This document shows positions 29,993 to 42,959 of a DNA stretch of 64,000 nt, in pieces. How positions within the stretch are numbered: the first letter of the stretch is position 1; each line of letters begins with the position of its first letter. Location of the stretch: positions 85,049 to 149,048 of the forward strand of contig CAKZPE010000085.1 of NCBI GenBank assembly GCA_937138495.1, written 5' to 3'. Under the pieces are notes generated by a model. The model did no database searches. It was not told where the DNA came from and worked only from the letters and a program-made list of their open reading frames with translations. Both the position numbers and the translations under genes were made by a program. The stretch is from an uncultured Oceanospirillaceae bacterium. Lineage in GTDB: Bacteria; Pseudomonadota; Gammaproteobacteria; Pseudomonadales; Balneatricaceae.

Positions 29993-30535
29993 TCAGTCCT
30001 CCCAGGGACCAAAGCCCGGTATATCAATCATCTCTTCTTCAAACCGGGCCAACGCAGTATCCTGATTGCAGGCATCACAGTTGCTCATACTGATCACATC
30101 CGGATTGCCGGTGGTCATAGCTGCTGACAATTCATCATGTTCGTGCCTGAACTCAGGCAACTGCGTGATGCGCAGCGGGGCTTTCGTCTGCATCTTCTGC
30201 AATAACCCCTGCCCTTCAAAACCCGCATGGCTGATCAGATACTTCAACACTTTAGCGTGTTCGTCCGGCAACAACTCAGCATTATCGTCAAAATGATACT
30301 CCAGACCTGCCATCAGCGTTTCCCAGCTTTTAGCCGGCAGCAACACCGGCGGATACGCCATATGGCATTCGCCACAGGTCCGCGCATAGCCGGCAGGAAC
30401 CGGGCCTTTCATAGCCATCGTTGCCTGATCCGACGCGGTGGCAACGGACCCCAACGCACTGACACCGAAATAAATACCGCTCATTAACAGACCACAGGCA
30501 ACCAGCCAGCGGCCCCGGGTAACCACTGTATGCAT
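29993..30535 (-). CDS. Diheme cytochrome c (DHC)-family protein with second heme motif CDACN
   Basis: Membrane/signal segment, CGECH motif, AKSWETLMAGLEYHFDDNAEL, second motif SNCDACNQD (His to Asn). Confidence 0.82.
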   Translation of the reverse strand: MHTVVTRGRWLVACGLLMSGIYFGVSALGSVATASDQATMAMKGPVPAGYARTCGECHMAYPPVLLPAKSWETLMAGLEYHFDDNAELLPDEHAKVLKYLISHAGFEGQGLLQKMQTKAPLRITQLPEFRHEHDELSAAMTTGNPDVISMSNCDACNQDTALARFEEEMIDIPGFGPWED

Positions 30536-30538
30536 AAC

Positions 30539-30934
30539 TTATTGCTCCTTTAGCCATACCAGTACATCTGCTTTTTCCTGCAGGCTGCACTCACGTTTAA
30601 GGGTCCATTTACAATTCCGTAAAAACCATTTTTCTATCTTTTTCTCATCCGTTAACCGCAAAGCATTCACTGAAGGTGCCATGGGATCTATATGCTTCGC
30701 GGTTCGCACATGTTTACCGGCATCCACAGGCGCATCACCGTGACAATCCGTACAGCGGCGGCCGTCAAAATCGGTAAACCAGAGGGTTTTGCCGGCTTCA
30801 GCACTCGCGGTGTTCACACCCTGCTGCAGATACGTGTTCAGCAGGTCATCAGCCGGGGCGGCAAACACACTGCCGCCCAACAGCAGAATACCGATACACC
30901 CAAAGGTCAGACTTAAACGGTTAGCGGTTATCAT
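30539..30934 (-). CDS. DUF1924/SHP-like monoheme c-type cytochrome
   Basis: Signal peptide; CTDCHGDAPVDAGKHVRTAKHIDPMAPSVNALRLTDEKKIEKWFLRNCKWTLKRECSLQEKADVLVWL. Confidence 0.82.
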   Translation of the reverse strand: MITANRLSLTFGCIGILLLGGSVFAAPADDLLNTYLQQGVNTASAEAGKTLWFTDFDGRRCTDCHGDAPVDAGKHVRTAKHIDPMAPSVNALRLTDEKKIEKWFLRNCKWTLKRECSLQEKADVLVWLKEQ

Positions 30935-30966
30935 AGCGGCCTTCTCTCTTCCGGATATTTCGACTA

Positions 30967-31584
30967 TCAGCGGTTTTTATTGCCGGTCAGCATGGCTTTG
31001 ATCAGATTTTCTTTATGCACAACAGAGCTCACCAGAACCCCGGCGACATGAATAACAATCAGAGAAATCATAAAGTTAGCGGCAAACTCATGGAGTGGTT
31101 CCATCACGGATTCAGAATATAGCCAGTGACCGGATACATACCAGGCAGCCAGAGGTCCTTCACCTTCAGCAGCCGCCAGAAACAGGCCGGATACGCTCAG
31201 TAAGATCAGAATGACAAGCAGTAATACAACCATCCAGCCACCGGCGGGATTATGACCGGTATAGTGCTTTACCCGACGGGACGTCAGGCTTTTCAGGTAT
31301 GACTTAAGCTCAGCAAATGAGGTAACAAAATTTGTAAACCGGGCATGATGGCTACCGACACATCCCCACAACAGCCGGAAGGTAATCAGACATGCCACAC
31401 CGTAACCGGCATAAAAATGCACAGTCTGCAGATCATCCTCAGATAAGTAGGCGGTAAAAAACAGAACCACCAGTGACCAGTGAAAGATTCGGATAAACCC
31501 GTCCCAGACTCTGACGGAAGCGCCCGGCTGGCTGTAATCCTGTGAACGGTGAGATAGGTTTTGCATTACGGTTGCCCTGTACAT
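30967..31584 (-). CDS. Cytochrome b561-type (di-heme) membrane protein
   Basis: VWDGFIRIFHWSLVVLFFTAYLSEDDLQTVHFYAGYGVACLITFRLLWGCVG; 4 TM with conserved His. Confidence 0.9.
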   Translation of the reverse strand: MYRATVMQNLSHRSQDYSQPGASVRVWDGFIRIFHWSLVVLFFTAYLSEDDLQTVHFYAGYGVACLITFRLLWGCVGSHHARFTNFVTSFAELKSYLKSLTSRRVKHYTGHNPAGGWMVVLLLVILILLSVSGLFLAAAEGEGPLAAWYVSGHWLYSESVMEPLHEFAANFMISLIVIHVAGVLVSSVVHKENLIKAMLTGNKNR

Positions 31585-33207: not shown

Positions 33208-33630
33208 GCACGGGCCCTTTTCCCTGGCGACAACAGTTGTTTCTGACATGCCTGACAGACACTGCAGATAAGCAAAACCTGCTATCTGATCTGTATAAGC
33301 TAACAACTTGAATAGACAGAATTTTTTCAGTTGTGACACACAAAATCAAGACAATTTGTAATCTAATCCCCAATCTGACATCGCTATCTTTCCGGTGCCA
33401 CTGACAACAGTGGTACGTAATATCCTCGGGTATTTCATTCTGTGATCCCGGTGCTTCAGCCATACGTCCAAACAGAGTAACAACATTGCCCCGTAGTCAA
33501 AATAGCCAGCTAGTGCTGCACTGACTCATCCGGGCCTTTAACAGTTGCAGTCCGTCATAGTTAAAAACTAAAAACCCGATAGTTAAGATAAAACAGCCAA
33601 ACTCTGATTCTTCACTTAGTATGCAAAATA

Positions 33631-33649
33631 TAGTTAGGACTACTAACTA
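33631..33649. promoter_or_regulatory. Perfect inverted repeat TAGTTAG-GACTA-CTAACTA, candidate operator
   Basis: 7-5-7 palindrome read directly, 32 bp upstream of the ATG of the thioredoxin-like gene at 33681; related TAGTTAAAAACTA at 33558-33570 and TAGTTAAG at 33580-33587. Confidence 0.65.
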
Positions 33650-33680
33650 ATAAGCAAAATTCATAACACGGAGAATAACG

Positions 33681-33923
33681 ATGACTAATGCCATTTTTTA
33701 CCATGCAGGCTGCCCTGTTTGTGTGTCAGCAGAATCACAGATTCTGGACATAGTCGACCGGAACAAAGTTGAACTGGAGGTTGTGCACTTCGGTGAAGGC
33801 CAGGCTAACCGGATTGCAGAGGCGGAAGCCTGCGGAGTTAAGTCCGTGCCGGCCCTCGTCATCGACGGCCAGGTATTACACATTAATTTTGGTGCCAGCA
33901 TGGAAGACGTGAAGAACGCATAA
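33681..33923 (+). CDS. Small thioredoxin/glutaredoxin-like protein
   Basis: 80 aa; FYHAGCPVCVSAES (CPVC) and KSVPALVIDGQ (cis-Pro). Confidence 0.85.
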   Translation: MTNAIFYHAGCPVCVSAESQILDIVDRNKVELEVVHFGEGQANRIAEAEACGVKSVPALVIDGQVLHINFGASMEDVKNA

Positions 33924-33983
33924 AGCAGTCACTCCCTTTATACATGCTTCCTTTTATAGTTACGGAATAACAGGTTAATAACG

Positions 33984-34733
33984 ATGAAAATCCAAAAAAG
34001 CTCAAACACATTTCTGGCTGCAGCGTGCGCACTTGCACTGACAGCCTCAACCGCTGCCCTTGCGGGTGGTAGCCACATTGATTCGCCGGCAGACCCGGCC
34101 ATTAATGCAGATTTTGATATCTTAAAGGCACGGGTAATTACTGACGGCTCACACCTGGTGTTCCATCAGAAAGTCAGTGGTACTGCCGGTCAGACAGTAC
34201 CGGCAAAAGTCGGCCAGCTCGGCGGTTCAGAAATCTATACTTATGTATGGCCAACATCGCTGGACAGCAGCACTGTCGGTTTCGCAGCGGACAAAGGCGT
34301 TCTTGCGCTGGCACTGACCGTTCACCCTGACTTCGATGACACCCCGCTTTACGACGAAGATGGCGACGGCGACAAGAAAAATGACGGTGATAAGTGGCAC
34401 AGCCACTGGGTTGTTCTGACACCTGATAACAATTGTGGCAAAGGGGCCCTGAAGATCCGCGACATTCCGGAAGGTACCTCACCGAAAATGCCTGACACCT
34501 GGCCTGAACTGCCGATTTACATCGACAGCCCGGGCTATGACTGGGCACTGAATAACGGCGAAGCACTGATCAGGGTCCCGCTTAAGGACGTTGGCTTATC
34601 GAAGAACTTTAAGTTTGATGCAGTAACATCTGTGATCAAAATCAACGAAAACGTCCATGCACCTCTGGCCTGTATTTCGAATGTCTGGGATATCGCATCA
34701 GCTGACCTGAGCCTGCCAGGCAACGTTCAGTAA
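33984..34733 (+). CDS. Hypothetical secreted protein
   Basis: Signal peptide ACALALTASTAALAGG; 249 aa with acidic DEDGDGDKKNDGDKW segment. Confidence 0.7.
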   Translation: MKIQKSSNTFLAAACALALTASTAALAGGSHIDSPADPAINADFDILKARVITDGSHLVFHQKVSGTAGQTVPAKVGQLGGSEIYTYVWPTSLDSSTVGFAADKGVLALALTVHPDFDDTPLYDEDGDGDKKNDGDKWHSHWVVLTPDNNCGKGALKIRDIPEGTSPKMPDTWPELPIYIDSPGYDWALNNGEALIRVPLKDVGLSKNFKFDAVTSVIKINENVHAPLACISNVWDIASADLSLPGNVQ

Positions 34734-34806
34734 AACGCCATAATTTACCTGCAGGGCATACTCAGCCAATGGGTATGTCCCGCCAGCTTTACAGAGTGAG
34801 ATCACG

Positions 34807-35088
34807 ATGAAAATTGATGTTTACGATACCTACGCCACCCTGTCATCAGGCAAGATGGTGCACTTTGATGTCTTTATACCCAGCGGCGAAAACAAAGCCA
34901 CGGCGGTGAACTACGCCAATACATTTTTAGCTACACTGGAAGAGACACACAACAGCCTGAATCAGCAGCTGTGTAATTTTTGCCATTCGGAAATCACTAA
35001 CCCGAAAATTGCTGCAGAAATCGCTGCACATGGCCACTATATTCTGCAAATGGAAGGTTGCCCTAAACCATACGGAGGCCCCGAATGA
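34807..35088 (+). CDS. DUF2024 family protein
   Basis: MKIDVYDTYATLSSGKMVHFDVFIPSG...CNFCHSE...HGHYILQMEGCPKP matches my recollection of the DUF2024 family. Confidence 0.75.
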   Translation: MKIDVYDTYATLSSGKMVHFDVFIPSGENKATAVNYANTFLATLEETHNSLNQQLCNFCHSEITNPKIAAEIAAHGHYILQMEGCPKPYGGPE

Positions 35089-35552
35089 AGACATTAACGC
35101 CTGCCCCCCCGCTGGATGTGAGTGAATGGCTGAACAGCCAGCACGGCATCAGCCTCGCTTCACTGCGGGGCCGTGCGGTTATGATTTGTGCCTTTCAGCT
35201 GCTCTGCCCCGCCTGTGTAGAGCTGGGACTGCCTCAGGCCAAGCGGGTCAGAACGTTATTTGCAGAACAGGATCTGGTGGTTCTGGGTCTGCATACCCTG
35301 TTTGAGCATCACGGGGCGGTTACAAAAGCCACACTTGAAGCGTTTCTGCATGAAAACAGAATACGCTTCCCGGTTGGGATTGACCGGAACGACGGAACCT
35401 CAGCCATTCCGAAAACCATGCAGACCTATAACTTGCAGGGCACCCCAACAACCTTGCTGATTAACAAGCAAGGCCTGATTACCCGGCAGCATTTAGGCCA
35501 TATTCCGGATTTACAGCTGGGTGCAGAGATCATGGCGCTCATAGCCGAGTAA
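35085..35552 (+). CDS. Redoxin/TlpA-like thiol-disulfide oxidoreductase
   Basis: LLCPACVELGLPQAKRV (CPAC), NLQGTPTTLLINKQGLI; ATGA overlap with the DUF2024 gene. Confidence 0.8.
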   Translation: MKTLTPAPPLDVSEWLNSQHGISLASLRGRAVMICAFQLLCPACVELGLPQAKRVRTLFAEQDLVVLGLHTLFEHHGAVTKATLEAFLHENRIRFPVGIDRNDGTSAIPKTMQTYNLQGTPTTLLINKQGLITRQHLGHIPDLQLGAEIMALIAE

Positions 35553-35688
35553 GCAGAACAGATAAAATAACCGGCCTGTCACCTGATACTGGCCAGCTGA
35601 CATCAGGTGATGGCCGTTTGAGCATACCCTGAACTTATGACAAACTGGCCGCCGAAAATCAGCAGACCACACCGAATATGAGTGTTTT

Positions 35689-36288
35689 ATGAAGAATGTT
35701 TTTGATAGTTCACAGCAAAATATGCACACGAAAATTATCGTGGGCATCGAACGGTTATCAACATTGTTCCGCTTTGGCTTACAGGACCAGGCCAAAAAAA
35801 ATCAGCTGACGCCGCTGCAGATACAGATCATCCTGTTTATTGGCTTGCACCCAAAACCCAGTTCCCCGTCAGACATTGCCGATGAGTTCGCATTAACCCG
35901 GGCAACGGTCAGCGATGCCATCAAGACCCTGATCAATAAATCCCTGGCGGAAAAGATTCAGGATCCGGCAGATGCGCGTAAATTTTCGGTGCGCCTGACG
36001 GATCAGGGTAAACAGGAACTCAGTTCATTTCATCCGCTGACCCAGACGTTTGATAAGGCACTGGGAAACCTCTCTGAAGCAGAATGTGAAACCGTATGGC
36101 AAGGCATTCTTACACTGTTCAAAGCGCTCCACCCTACAAACATTCCGGTACGAATGTGCTACAGCTGCCAGTATTTCAAAGCCGGAGACGGCGACTCGAC
36201 GCATTTCTGTAACCTGATGCAGGTTACCCTGCCATCACAGGATTTAAGACTGGACTGCCCTGAGCACCTGATAAAAGTACAACACTGA
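35689..36288 (+). CDS. MarR-family regulator with C-terminal Cys-rich extension
   Basis: DIADEFALTRATVSDAIKTLINKSLAEKIQDPADARKFSVRLTDQGK winged helix; C-terminal CYSCQYFKAGDGDSTHFCNLMQ...LDCPEH. Confidence 0.85.
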   Translation: MKNVFDSSQQNMHTKIIVGIERLSTLFRFGLQDQAKKNQLTPLQIQIILFIGLHPKPSSPSDIADEFALTRATVSDAIKTLINKSLAEKIQDPADARKFSVRLTDQGKQELSSFHPLTQTFDKALGNLSEAECETVWQGILTLFKALHPTNIPVRMCYSCQYFKAGDGDSTHFCNLMQVTLPSQDLRLDCPEHLIKVQH

Positions 36289-40775: not shown

Positions 40776-42959
40776 TCAGCCTGCCGCTCTTGCAGCCCGT
40801 GCCGCATGGAGCTTCTGATAGCTTTCGATCAGACGCAGGTGACGGTCCAGGCCTTCCAGTTTCATGCTGGTTGGAGTTAAGCCGAAGAAAGTTACTTCAC
40901 CGGTCACCGAACCCACCACGTTTTCCATCACGGTTTCGCCAAACATCCGGCGCAGGTTGTACTGGTAATCATCCAGTTCCAGATCGTCATTCAGAACAAT
41001 CTCCAGCACCGCATTCATCGCCTGATAGAACAGACCACGCTCTACGGTGTTGTCGTTGTACTGCAGGAAGTTTTCCACCAGCTCACGGGCTTCTTCATGC
41101 TGCTGTAGCGCCAGATAAATCAGGATCTTCAGTTCCAGAATGGTCAGCTGGCCCCAGACGGTATTCTCATCAAACTCGATACCAATAAAGGTTTTGATCT
41201 CGGTGTAGTTGTCTTCTTCACTCTCTTCCAGACGCTCCACCAGATCGGCCAGCTGTTCTTCATCCAGTTTATGGATATTAAGAATCTCTTCCCGGAAGTG
41301 AATCGCCTTATTGGTGTTATCCCATACCAGATCTTCCACCGGATACACTTCGGAGTAACCCGGCACAATGATCCGGCAGGCCGATGCACCGAAGTCATCA
41401 AAGGTGGCGACATACACTTCTTTACCCAGCGCCTCCAGAATCGCCATCAGGCTGGCACACTCTTCTTCATTACTGCCGGAGAAATCCCACTCACAGAACT
41501 CATACTCATTGGCGGCGCTGAAGAAACGCCAGGACACCACACCGGTTGAATCGATGAAGTGTTCAACAAAGTTATTCGGCTCAGACACCGCTTCACTGCT
41601 GAAGGTCGGTGCAGGCACATCATTCAGGCCTTCAAAGCTGCGCCCCTGCAGCAGTTCAGTCAGGCTGCGCTCCAGCGCCACTTCGAAGCTTGGGTGTGCA
41701 CCGAAAGATGCAAATACTCCGCCGGTACGCGGGTTCATCAGGGTCACACACATTACCGGGAACTGACCGCCCAGTGAGGCATCTTTCACCAGTACCGGGA
41801 AGCCCTGCTCTTCCAGACCGGCAATGCCAGCCTGAATGCCCGGGTACTTCGCCAGCACCGCTTCAGGCACATCCGGCAGCACGATTTCATCTTCAATGAT
41901 CTGACGTTTAACTGCCCGCTCAAAAATCTCGGACAAACATTGCACCTTGGCTTCATGAAGATTATTACCGGCACTCATGCCGTTACTCAGGAACAGGTTT
42001 TCCAGCAGATTTGAAGGAATATAGACCGTCTCTTCATCAGACTGACGCACATACGGCAAGGCACAAATGCCCCGCTCAAAGTTACCGGAGTTAGTATCAA
42101 TCAGATTGGAGCCATTCAGCTCACCGTCCGGGTTATAGATCTCCAGGCAGTAATCATCCATCAGGCCCGCCGGAACAGAATCATCGTCGGTCAGTTCAAA
42201 CCACTTTTCGTTCGGGTAATGAACGAACTCACTGTTGGCGATTTCTTCACCGAAATACTGGTCGTTATAGAAGAAGTTACAGCTGGCACGCTCAATAAAC
42301 TCGCCCAGTGCAGAACACAGAGCGCTTTCTTTTGACGCACCCTTACCGTTGGTGAAGCACATCGGCGATGCGGCATCCCGGATGTGCAGTGACCAGACAT
42401 TCGGTACGATATTCCGCCAGGATGAAATCTCGATTTTCATGCCCAGCGATTCCAGCATGCCGGTCATGTTTTCGATGGTCTTTTCCAACGGCAGATCTTT
42501 CCCCAGGATCCGGGTTTGGTGATCCGCATCGATACCCATTGCCATGATGGAGGCATCTTCATCCAGGTTCTCAACGGTTTCGATCTTAAATTCAGGTTCA
42601 GTCTGAACCACCTTCTTAACCGTACAACGGTCAATCGAGCGTAAAATGCCTGCCCGGTCTTTCTCCGAAATATCATCCGGCAGTTCTACCTGAATCTGGA
42701 AAATCTGGTTATAGCGGTTTTCCGGATCAACAATGTTATTTTGTGACAGGCGAATATCTTCCGTGGGAATATCCCGCGCCTTGCAGTACACCTTTACAAA
42801 GTACGCCGCGCATAAGGCTGACGATGCCAGAAAGTAATCAAACGGACTGGGTGCAGATCCGTCACCTTTATAACGGATCGGCTGATCTGCAGTCACAGTG
42901 AAATCATCAAACTTCGCTTCAAGTCTGAGGTTTTCTAAAAAATTAACTTTGATTTCCAT
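40776..42959 (-). CDS. OsmC-domain/YcaO-domain fusion protein
   Basis: N-terminal OsmC-like domain (RYKGDGSAPSPFDYFLASSALCAAYFVKVYCKAR) and YcaO domain (TNGKGASKESALCSALGEFIERASCNFFYND; GNNLHEAKVQCLSEIFERAVKRQIIEDEI; SFGAHPSFEVALERSLTELLQGR). Confidence 0.88.
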   Translation of the reverse strand: MEIKVNFLENLRLEAKFDDFTVTADQPIRYKGDGSAPSPFDYFLASSALCAAYFVKVYCKARDIPTEDIRLSQNNIVDPENRYNQIFQIQVELPDDISEKDRAGILRSIDRCTVKKVVQTEPEFKIETVENLDEDASIMAMGIDADHQTRILGKDLPLEKTIENMTGMLESLGMKIEISSWRNIVPNVWSLHIRDAASPMCFTNGKGASKESALCSALGEFIERASCNFFYNDQYFGEEIANSEFVHYPNEKWFELTDDDSVPAGLMDDYCLEIYNPDGELNGSNLIDTNSGNFERGICALPYVRQSDEETVYIPSNLLENLFLSNGMSAGNNLHEAKVQCLSEIFERAVKRQIIEDEIVLPDVPEAVLAKYPGIQAGIAGLEEQGFPVLVKDASLGGQFPVMCVTLMNPRTGGVFASFGAHPSFEVALERSLTELLQGRSFEGLNDVPAPTFSSEAVSEPNNFVEHFIDSTGVVSWRFFSAANEYEFCEWDFSGSNEEECASLMAILEALGKEVYVATFDDFGASACRIIVPGYSEVYPVEDLVWDNTNKAIHFREEILNIHKLDEEQLADLVERLEESEEDNYTEIKTFIGIEFDENTVWGQLTILELKILIYLALQQHEEARELVENFLQYNDNTVERGLFYQAMNAVLEIVLNDDLELDDYQYNLRRMFGETVMENVVGSVTGEVTFFGLTPTSMKLEGLDRHLRLIESYQKLHAARAARAAG

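Follow-up and report, generated by a model that had tools for sequence, protein, structure and literature searches.

A MarR-type regulator with a C-terminal four-cysteine array and its redox gene cassette in an uncultured Oceanospirillaceae bacterium

Genes and features of the locus

In the window, that is, the whole stretch of DNA that was analysed (64,000 nucleotides), five genes lie in the same orientation downstream of two palindromes and a putative promoter:

33558-33570, no strand: shorter palindrome TAGTTAAAAACTA, 13 bp, identical in genome G001 and one base off in G002, possibly an auxiliary site
33594-33622, + strand: putative promoter just 5′ of the operator, with a degenerate -35 (CAGCCA), a 17-nt spacer and a -10-like TAGTAT
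33631-33649, no strand: operator palindrome TAGTTAGGACTACTAACTA, perfect, 19 bp, 31 bases 5′ of the first start codon, probable MarR site
33681-33923, + strand: small cytosolic thioredoxin (Trx)/glutaredoxin-like protein with CPVC (Pfam Thioredoxin_3, 31.4 bits, cut-off 24.8)
33984-34733, + strand: exported protein of an unnamed family, called Sec here, with a signal peptide, HxH, a DxDGD-like loop and invariant Cys 151 and 230
34807-35088, + strand: DUF2024 protein with CNFCHS and a C-terminal Cys (Pfam PF09630, 90 bits, cut-off 27)
35085-35552, + strand: cytosolic TlpA/ResA-like redoxin with CPAC (Pfam AhpC-TSA, 32 bits, cut-off 26)
35689-36288, + strand: MarR regulator of the MarR4C subfamily defined below (Pfam MarR_2, 45.7 bits, cut-off 27)

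All five genes named by the first-pass annotation are present, as is the coupling it had noted between the DUF2024 and redoxin genes, which overlap by ATGA; the open reading frames agree with Pfam, which assigns four of the five proteins to families. DUF2024 is related to a protein of solved structure (2hfq). The nearest solved relative of the redoxin is 3eyt (SPOA0173 of Ruegeria pomeroyi; E 7e-65), and its score against the ResA model of NCBIfam (NF002854) is 39.1 bits, below the cut-off of 170. In the window marR is the last gene of the cassette and is separated from the redoxin gene by a gap of 136 bases, within which an inverted repeat (CACCTGAT...ATCAGGTG, 35580-35609) occurs. Since the 80 bases 5′ of marR are kept in congeners while this repeat is absent from them, marR may have an expression element of its own. 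The PADLOC anti-phage models gave no match to the four redox and secreted proteins and only weak helix-turn-helix matches to MarR, and do not support a role of the operon in anti-phage defence.

Sec by itself matched nothing in Pfam, NCBIfam or the PDB, in line with its initial description as a secreted protein of no recognised family, and a search together with its relatives likewise returned no Pfam or PDB match. It is 45-83% identical to the first nine relatives found, and a single-sequence AlphaFold model was unusable (pLDDT 33). The protein is seldom encountered outside the bacterial family of the window genome, being detected in seven of 369 genomes of the class (the window genome counted, and two of the matches partial), and it also occurs in Alphaproteobacteria and on Deinococcus and Spirosoma plasmids.

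Two further groups of genes in the window deserve mention. Genes for a dihaem cytochrome c (DHC, PF09626), a small c-type cytochrome and cytochrome b561 (29993-31584, - strand) show the arrangement of a sphaeroides-haem-protein (SHP) electron-transfer cluster; the DHC/cytochrome b561 genes lie about 2 kb upstream of the cassette and are partly kept near it in the congener G003. Furthermore, a long protein encoded at 40776-42959 (- strand) has an OsmC-like N-terminus fused to an apparent YcaO-type domain.

The MarR4C subfamily and its gene neighbourhoods

We define MarR4C as the MarR subfamily with the C-terminal pattern C-x2-C-x(10-21)-C-x15-C, which the window regulator matches with C157, C160, C174 and C190. 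An alignment of 27 sequences from Gamma-, Alpha- and Betaproteobacteria, Bacteroidota and Deinococcota was built, with members from the window genome and its family, Pseudomonas, Enterobacterales, Vibrio, Roseobacteraceae, Rhizobiaceae, Polaromonas, Flavobacterium, Spirosoma, Deinococcus and Thermus. Identity to the window MarR ranges from 17 to 76%, and the only invariant positions are R97 and the four Cys; the C-terminal CxxC...C...C that had been pointed out in the window protein alone is thus shared by all aligned relatives. The 15-residue spacing between the last two Cys is nearly constant in 73 MarR4C sequences. When 398 Pseudomonadota genomes were searched with a profile, four-Cys members scored about 120 bits and above (some 39 places in 32 genomes) and ordinary MarR proteins below 90 bits, leaving a clear gap between the two, and the window MarR fell under the cut-off of every NCBIfam equivalog that was scored.

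The Cys array forms a C-terminal extension beyond the canonical MarR fold. The presence of four invariant Cys in such an extension suggests a bound metal or Fe-S cluster, that is, the array probably holds an Fe-S or zinc site. An AlphaFold model (pLDDT 62) gave the MarR fold and secondary structure and placed the Cys region on a low-confidence hairpin; at the C-terminus the model is too uncertain to decide on metal binding.

The cassette is conserved as an association of genes rather than as a fixed order. Among 117 genomes of the same family, 18 encode Sec, 18 encode MarR4C and 17 encode both (Fisher p 3e-18), and the two genes are near each other and usually divergent. The order Trx-Sec-DUF2024-redoxin-MarR, with the regulator last, is common to the window and two congeners, and in G003 DUF2024-Sec-redoxin lie at the same place beside ubiT without a MarR gene. 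The first-pass annotation had staked its case on a conserved gene order: the association proved conserved, whereas the order varies, with MarR downstream here and divergent in most relatives. We also took 38 MarR4C loci from a random sample of the phylum, one of which (L159, 89 bits) turned out to lack the Cys cluster. In all 38 loci compared with 20 control loci of ordinary MarR genes, Sec (14/38, p 0.001), Trx (12/38, p 0.005) and redoxin (10/38, p 0.01) were enriched. In 27 'core' loci, which were chosen after looking and leave out one branch (mostly one Alphaproteobacterial genus) with none of the redox genes, Sec was found in 14, a Trx-like gene in 12, redoxin in 10 and DUF2024 in 5; at least one of these four, or HTHP/P460, was present in 22 of the 27 core loci and in none of the 20 controls. 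The module put forward as a candidate for an undescribed system is genuine and conserved, and no account of it was found in the literature searched.

Several other arrangements were seen around MarR4C genes. The window genome encodes a second MarR4C, of clade I (see below), on contig 32 (4231-5358), divergent from a gene for a small SPW-domain membrane protein and with a TTTCGA-type operator; this pairing recurs at four loci in other genomes. A branch of four-Cys MarR proteins at ten loci, mostly from one Alphaproteobacterial genus and often two per genome, comes without redox partners or a recognisable operator. A class-I glutamine amidotransferase gene recurs next to MarR4C or its redoxin (nine loci); a link to Dirammox through this neighbour was set aside, DnfR being MocR-like. 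In Alphaproteobacteria, MOSC-domain proteins adjoin MarR4C (six loci), sometimes together with a reductase of the PDR/VanB type, on plasmids of Phaeobacter and Ruegeria.

The probable operator palindrome and the putative promoter region

A perfect TAGTTAG-N5-CTAACTA palindrome and two partial copies had been reported upstream of the cassette. The perfect copy stands at 33631-33649 and is retained in two congeners as TAGTTAGGACTCCTAACTA and TAGTTAGGACTCCTTACTA as well as in distant relatives. One of the partial copies (33557) is part of the conserved 13-bp palindrome, whereas the other (33579) is not retained as TAGTTA in relatives. The perfect palindrome is the single match at up to three mismatches in the 64-kb window and the single perfect copy in the 5-Mb genome. 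As about one match per window is expected by chance at up to three mismatches, this rarity is modest evidence; the real evidence for an operator is conservation, more than rarity. Across three congeneric promoters, the palindrome is a conserved block amid drifting DNA. The putative promoter at 33594-33622 was deduced from this three-species footprint, a consensus promoter scan not having picked it out; the -35 reads CTGTCA in G001, and the -10 reads TATTAT and TACTAT in relatives.

MarR4C promoters repeatedly show the geometry TAGT-N3-GANTC-N3-ACTA, with inner bases that follow the phylogeny of the regulators. A tree of 73 regulators has two deep clades (support 100/100). The nine TTAGGA-type sites all belong to the 19-row clade that contains the window MarR, and the TATCGA-type sites are all in the other clade, except for one poor match at a Thermus locus. 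Clade I regulators, those of Pseudomonas, Enterobacter and Vibrio among them, have the operator TAGTATCGAnTCGATACTA, which overlaps the -10 box 3′ of a TTGTCA -35, as would be expected of a repressor. The consensus of the window clade, TAGTTAGGAnTCCTAACTA, is clade-specific and occurs in Alphaproteobacteria and Bacteroidota relatives: at Defluviimonas MarR4C, in weaker form at Sinorhizobium MarR4C, and about 200 bp 5′ of a Spirosoma DUF2024-Sec operon. A site scoring at least 12 of 15 points was found near the regulator at 44 of 75 MarR4C loci and at none of the 20 controls, a comparison that is partly circular, the consensus having been derived from these very loci; the stronger argument lies in the segregation by clade and in the matches across phyla. 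Taken together, the palindrome is very probably the operator of MarR4C.

The regulon looks narrow. With the clade I operator at up to one mismatch, 12 of 13 sites in 38 genomes were at a MarR4C locus; the 13th, which lies on contig 61 of G324 with a hypothetical protein gene to one side and small genes of the opposite strand to the other, is probably a chance match. A scan of the window genome gave no convincing extra target, with three 2-mismatch sites against 13 control hits.

It could be argued that ordinary redox genes and a MarR gene merely happen to lie side by side, next to a fortuitous palindrome. The varying gene order and the chance expectation of one palindrome match per window would be in keeping with this, but it is contradicted by the association, by the conservation of the operator and by co-variation across phyla, which make such a coincidence highly improbable.

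Proposed mechanism and comparison with known systems

Gene content, conserved association, an invariant Cys array and a conserved palindrome co-varying with the regulator are direct observations. From these we propose, with a probability of about 0.4, a self-repressed stress operon in which the four C-terminal Cys of the regulator form a metal site, most likely Fe-S, and NO, reactive nitrogen species (RNS) or oxidants are the most likely signal. Judging from the position of the operator, a MarR dimer on the 19-bp palindrome beside the promoter would keep the operon low. NO or related reactive nitrogen or oxidant species would damage or modify the four-Cys metal site, most likely an Fe-S cluster, and the repressor would then release DNA. 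The operon and marR would be induced together, and with marR in last position this would amount to negative feedback. The cytosolic CPVC and CPAC reductases would restore thiols, Sec would act outside the inner membrane, and these proteins together with DUF2024 would repair thiols, or buffer them, on either side of that membrane.

A metal in the four-Cys site is likely, and NO/RNS as signal is our best guess. The C-x2-C...C-x15-C array, with its four invariant Cys, resembles a metal or Fe-S site more than it does a thiol switch of one or two Cys. The best precedent is ArnR, a MarR-like repressor of hmp with C-terminal Cys and a [4Fe-4S] cluster, whose DNA binding is abolished by NO (PMC12343034). 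Together with the NO-linked heme genes near MarR4C relatives, this precedent is why we favour an Fe-S repressor that controls genes of nitrosative/thiol stress. Cytochrome P460/c'-beta genes stand beside MarR4C in Thermus, in a relative from the same family and in a third genome, and other neighbours include protoglobin, truncated haemoglobin, HTHP, NnrS and a nitrite-reductase (nirK) region, as well as peroxidase-related, superoxide dismutase and catalase genes and MOSC proteins. The NO-linked heme genes are a minority of the neighbours, in a list compiled after the first ones had been noticed and not blind; the mixture fits nitrosative/oxidative thiol stress and does not single out NO, although it speaks for NO/reactive nitrogen no less than for electrophiles. 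A phylogenetic profile of NnrS was discarded as weak evidence confounded by kinship: NnrS is in all 18 Sec-bearing genomes but also in most others (p 0.005 ignoring kinship). Counting against the proposed model, the short P. aeruginosa and Enterobacter versions have no NO gene and the G003 cassette lacks MarR.

Alternatively, and in line with the first-pass annotation, the array could be a direct thiol switch: HOCl, hypothiocyanite, quinones, aldehydes or polysulfides would alkylate the four Cys or drive them into disulfides, a zinc ion being expelled or not, and the repressor would release the operon. The recurrent partners are indeed CPxC-bearing thiol oxidoreductases; several MarR4C copies have genes for superoxide dismutase, catalase or peroxidase-related (AhpD/CMD-like) proteins nearby, and GFA-family (glutathione/formaldehyde) genes lie near some clade I copies. 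Nevertheless, an invariant set of four Cys with the x15 spacing fixed is suggestive of tetrahedral ligands, whereas the MarR thiol switches known to us use one or two Cys per subunit, and the main text of a P. aeruginosa HOCl/HOSCN transcriptome paper does not mention the MarR4C cluster genes. We consider direct switching somewhat less likely than the Fe-S reading. Zinc would fit four Cys equally well, C-x2-C...C...C being also a zinc-binding pattern, and an array outside the canonical MarR fold could be a sensor of zinc or another metal, or a structural zinc ribbon that holds Zn permanently for folding while a small molecule in the MarR pocket acts as effector. We regard this as unlikely, as the recurring partners are redox genes, not efflux pumps or metal transporters, and no gene of small-molecule catabolism consistently accompanies the family.

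If the Fe-S repressor reading is extended to the whole subfamily, MarR4C would be an undescribed class of Fe-S MarR repressors that spans phyla, senses NO or related species and governs an unnamed defence cassette, including the new exported family and DUF2024, with a short version in P. aeruginosa and enterobacteria; this generalisation is tentative. The locus itself is best described as a MarR-type redox/metal repressor with a redox cassette, a described type of system in a form undescribed in the literature searched. DUF2024, scantly mentioned in that literature, and an exported family without any profile match thereby gain a context in which function can be tested, and a MarR subfamily is now defined by an invariant metal-like Cys array, with its operator supplied. 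Laboratory strains offer a quick route to the signal, since P. aeruginosa and clinical Enterobacter plasmids carry MarR4C members.

Among known regulators, ArnR of Corynebacterium shares with the window MarR the MarR-type winged helix, a C-terminal Cys cluster domain, the role of repressor (presumed for the latter) and one similar Cys spacing (x13), but it has three conserved Cys instead of four, is longer (269-position model) and targets nar and hmp; the window MarR scored 22.4 bits against the ArnR equivalog (NF041016), far from the cut-off of 400. ChlR of cyanobacteria is a MarR protein and oxygen-sensitive activator for which a [4Fe-4S] cluster is proposed (PMC4500134). Family and proposed cluster are common to ChlR and MarR4C, whereas the proposed ligands of ChlR are N-terminal Cys, the invariant Cys of MarR4C being all C-terminal, and ChlR activates tetrapyrrole genes. 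The switches of the OhrR/MgrA/HypR type are likewise MarR repressors linked to redox defence; their reactive Cys, one or two in number, lie in the MarR core, and a C-terminal four-Cys array is not known from them. Against the model of the zinc-dependent MarR AdcR (NF038251), the window MarR scored 32.3 bits, below the cut-off of 175. CioR and OsbR of Chromobacterium are, by description, not regulators of the MarR4C kind. A MOSC-MarR4C/Sec-HTHP-redoxin cassette of Ruegeria encodes a redoxin of the SPOA0173 (3eyt) kind, as in the window, but contains HTHP and MOSC genes and lacks a DUF2024 or Trx-like gene next to it.

A short MarR4C cassette, in which the regulator is accompanied by Trx-like, DUF2024 and Rof genes only, occurs in P. 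aeruginosa and Enterobacter. The P. aeruginosa MarR-Trx-DUF2024-Rof cluster sits between wzz-like and purN genes and is what we take to be PA0939-PA0942 (PAO1 numbering); the literature searched on these genes and their presumed PA14 orthologues holds incidental mentions only, with no function described. Rof, a Rho-binding antiterminator, is encoded in Pseudomonas and Enterobacterales cassettes at nine loci, so that the response may extend to transcription termination. MarR4C is also found with a glutaredoxin-like gene and Rof on large conjugative IncHI2A plasmids of Enterobacter (NZ_AP025834.1), inside apparently captured chromosomal DNA (uspE to tyrR). The P. aeruginosa cluster differs from the window in its clade I regulator, divergent order and added Rof, and in that Sec and redoxin are not adjacent; it resembles the window in its MarR4C regulator, there with an operator of the TATCGA type, and in its Trx-like and DUF2024 partners.
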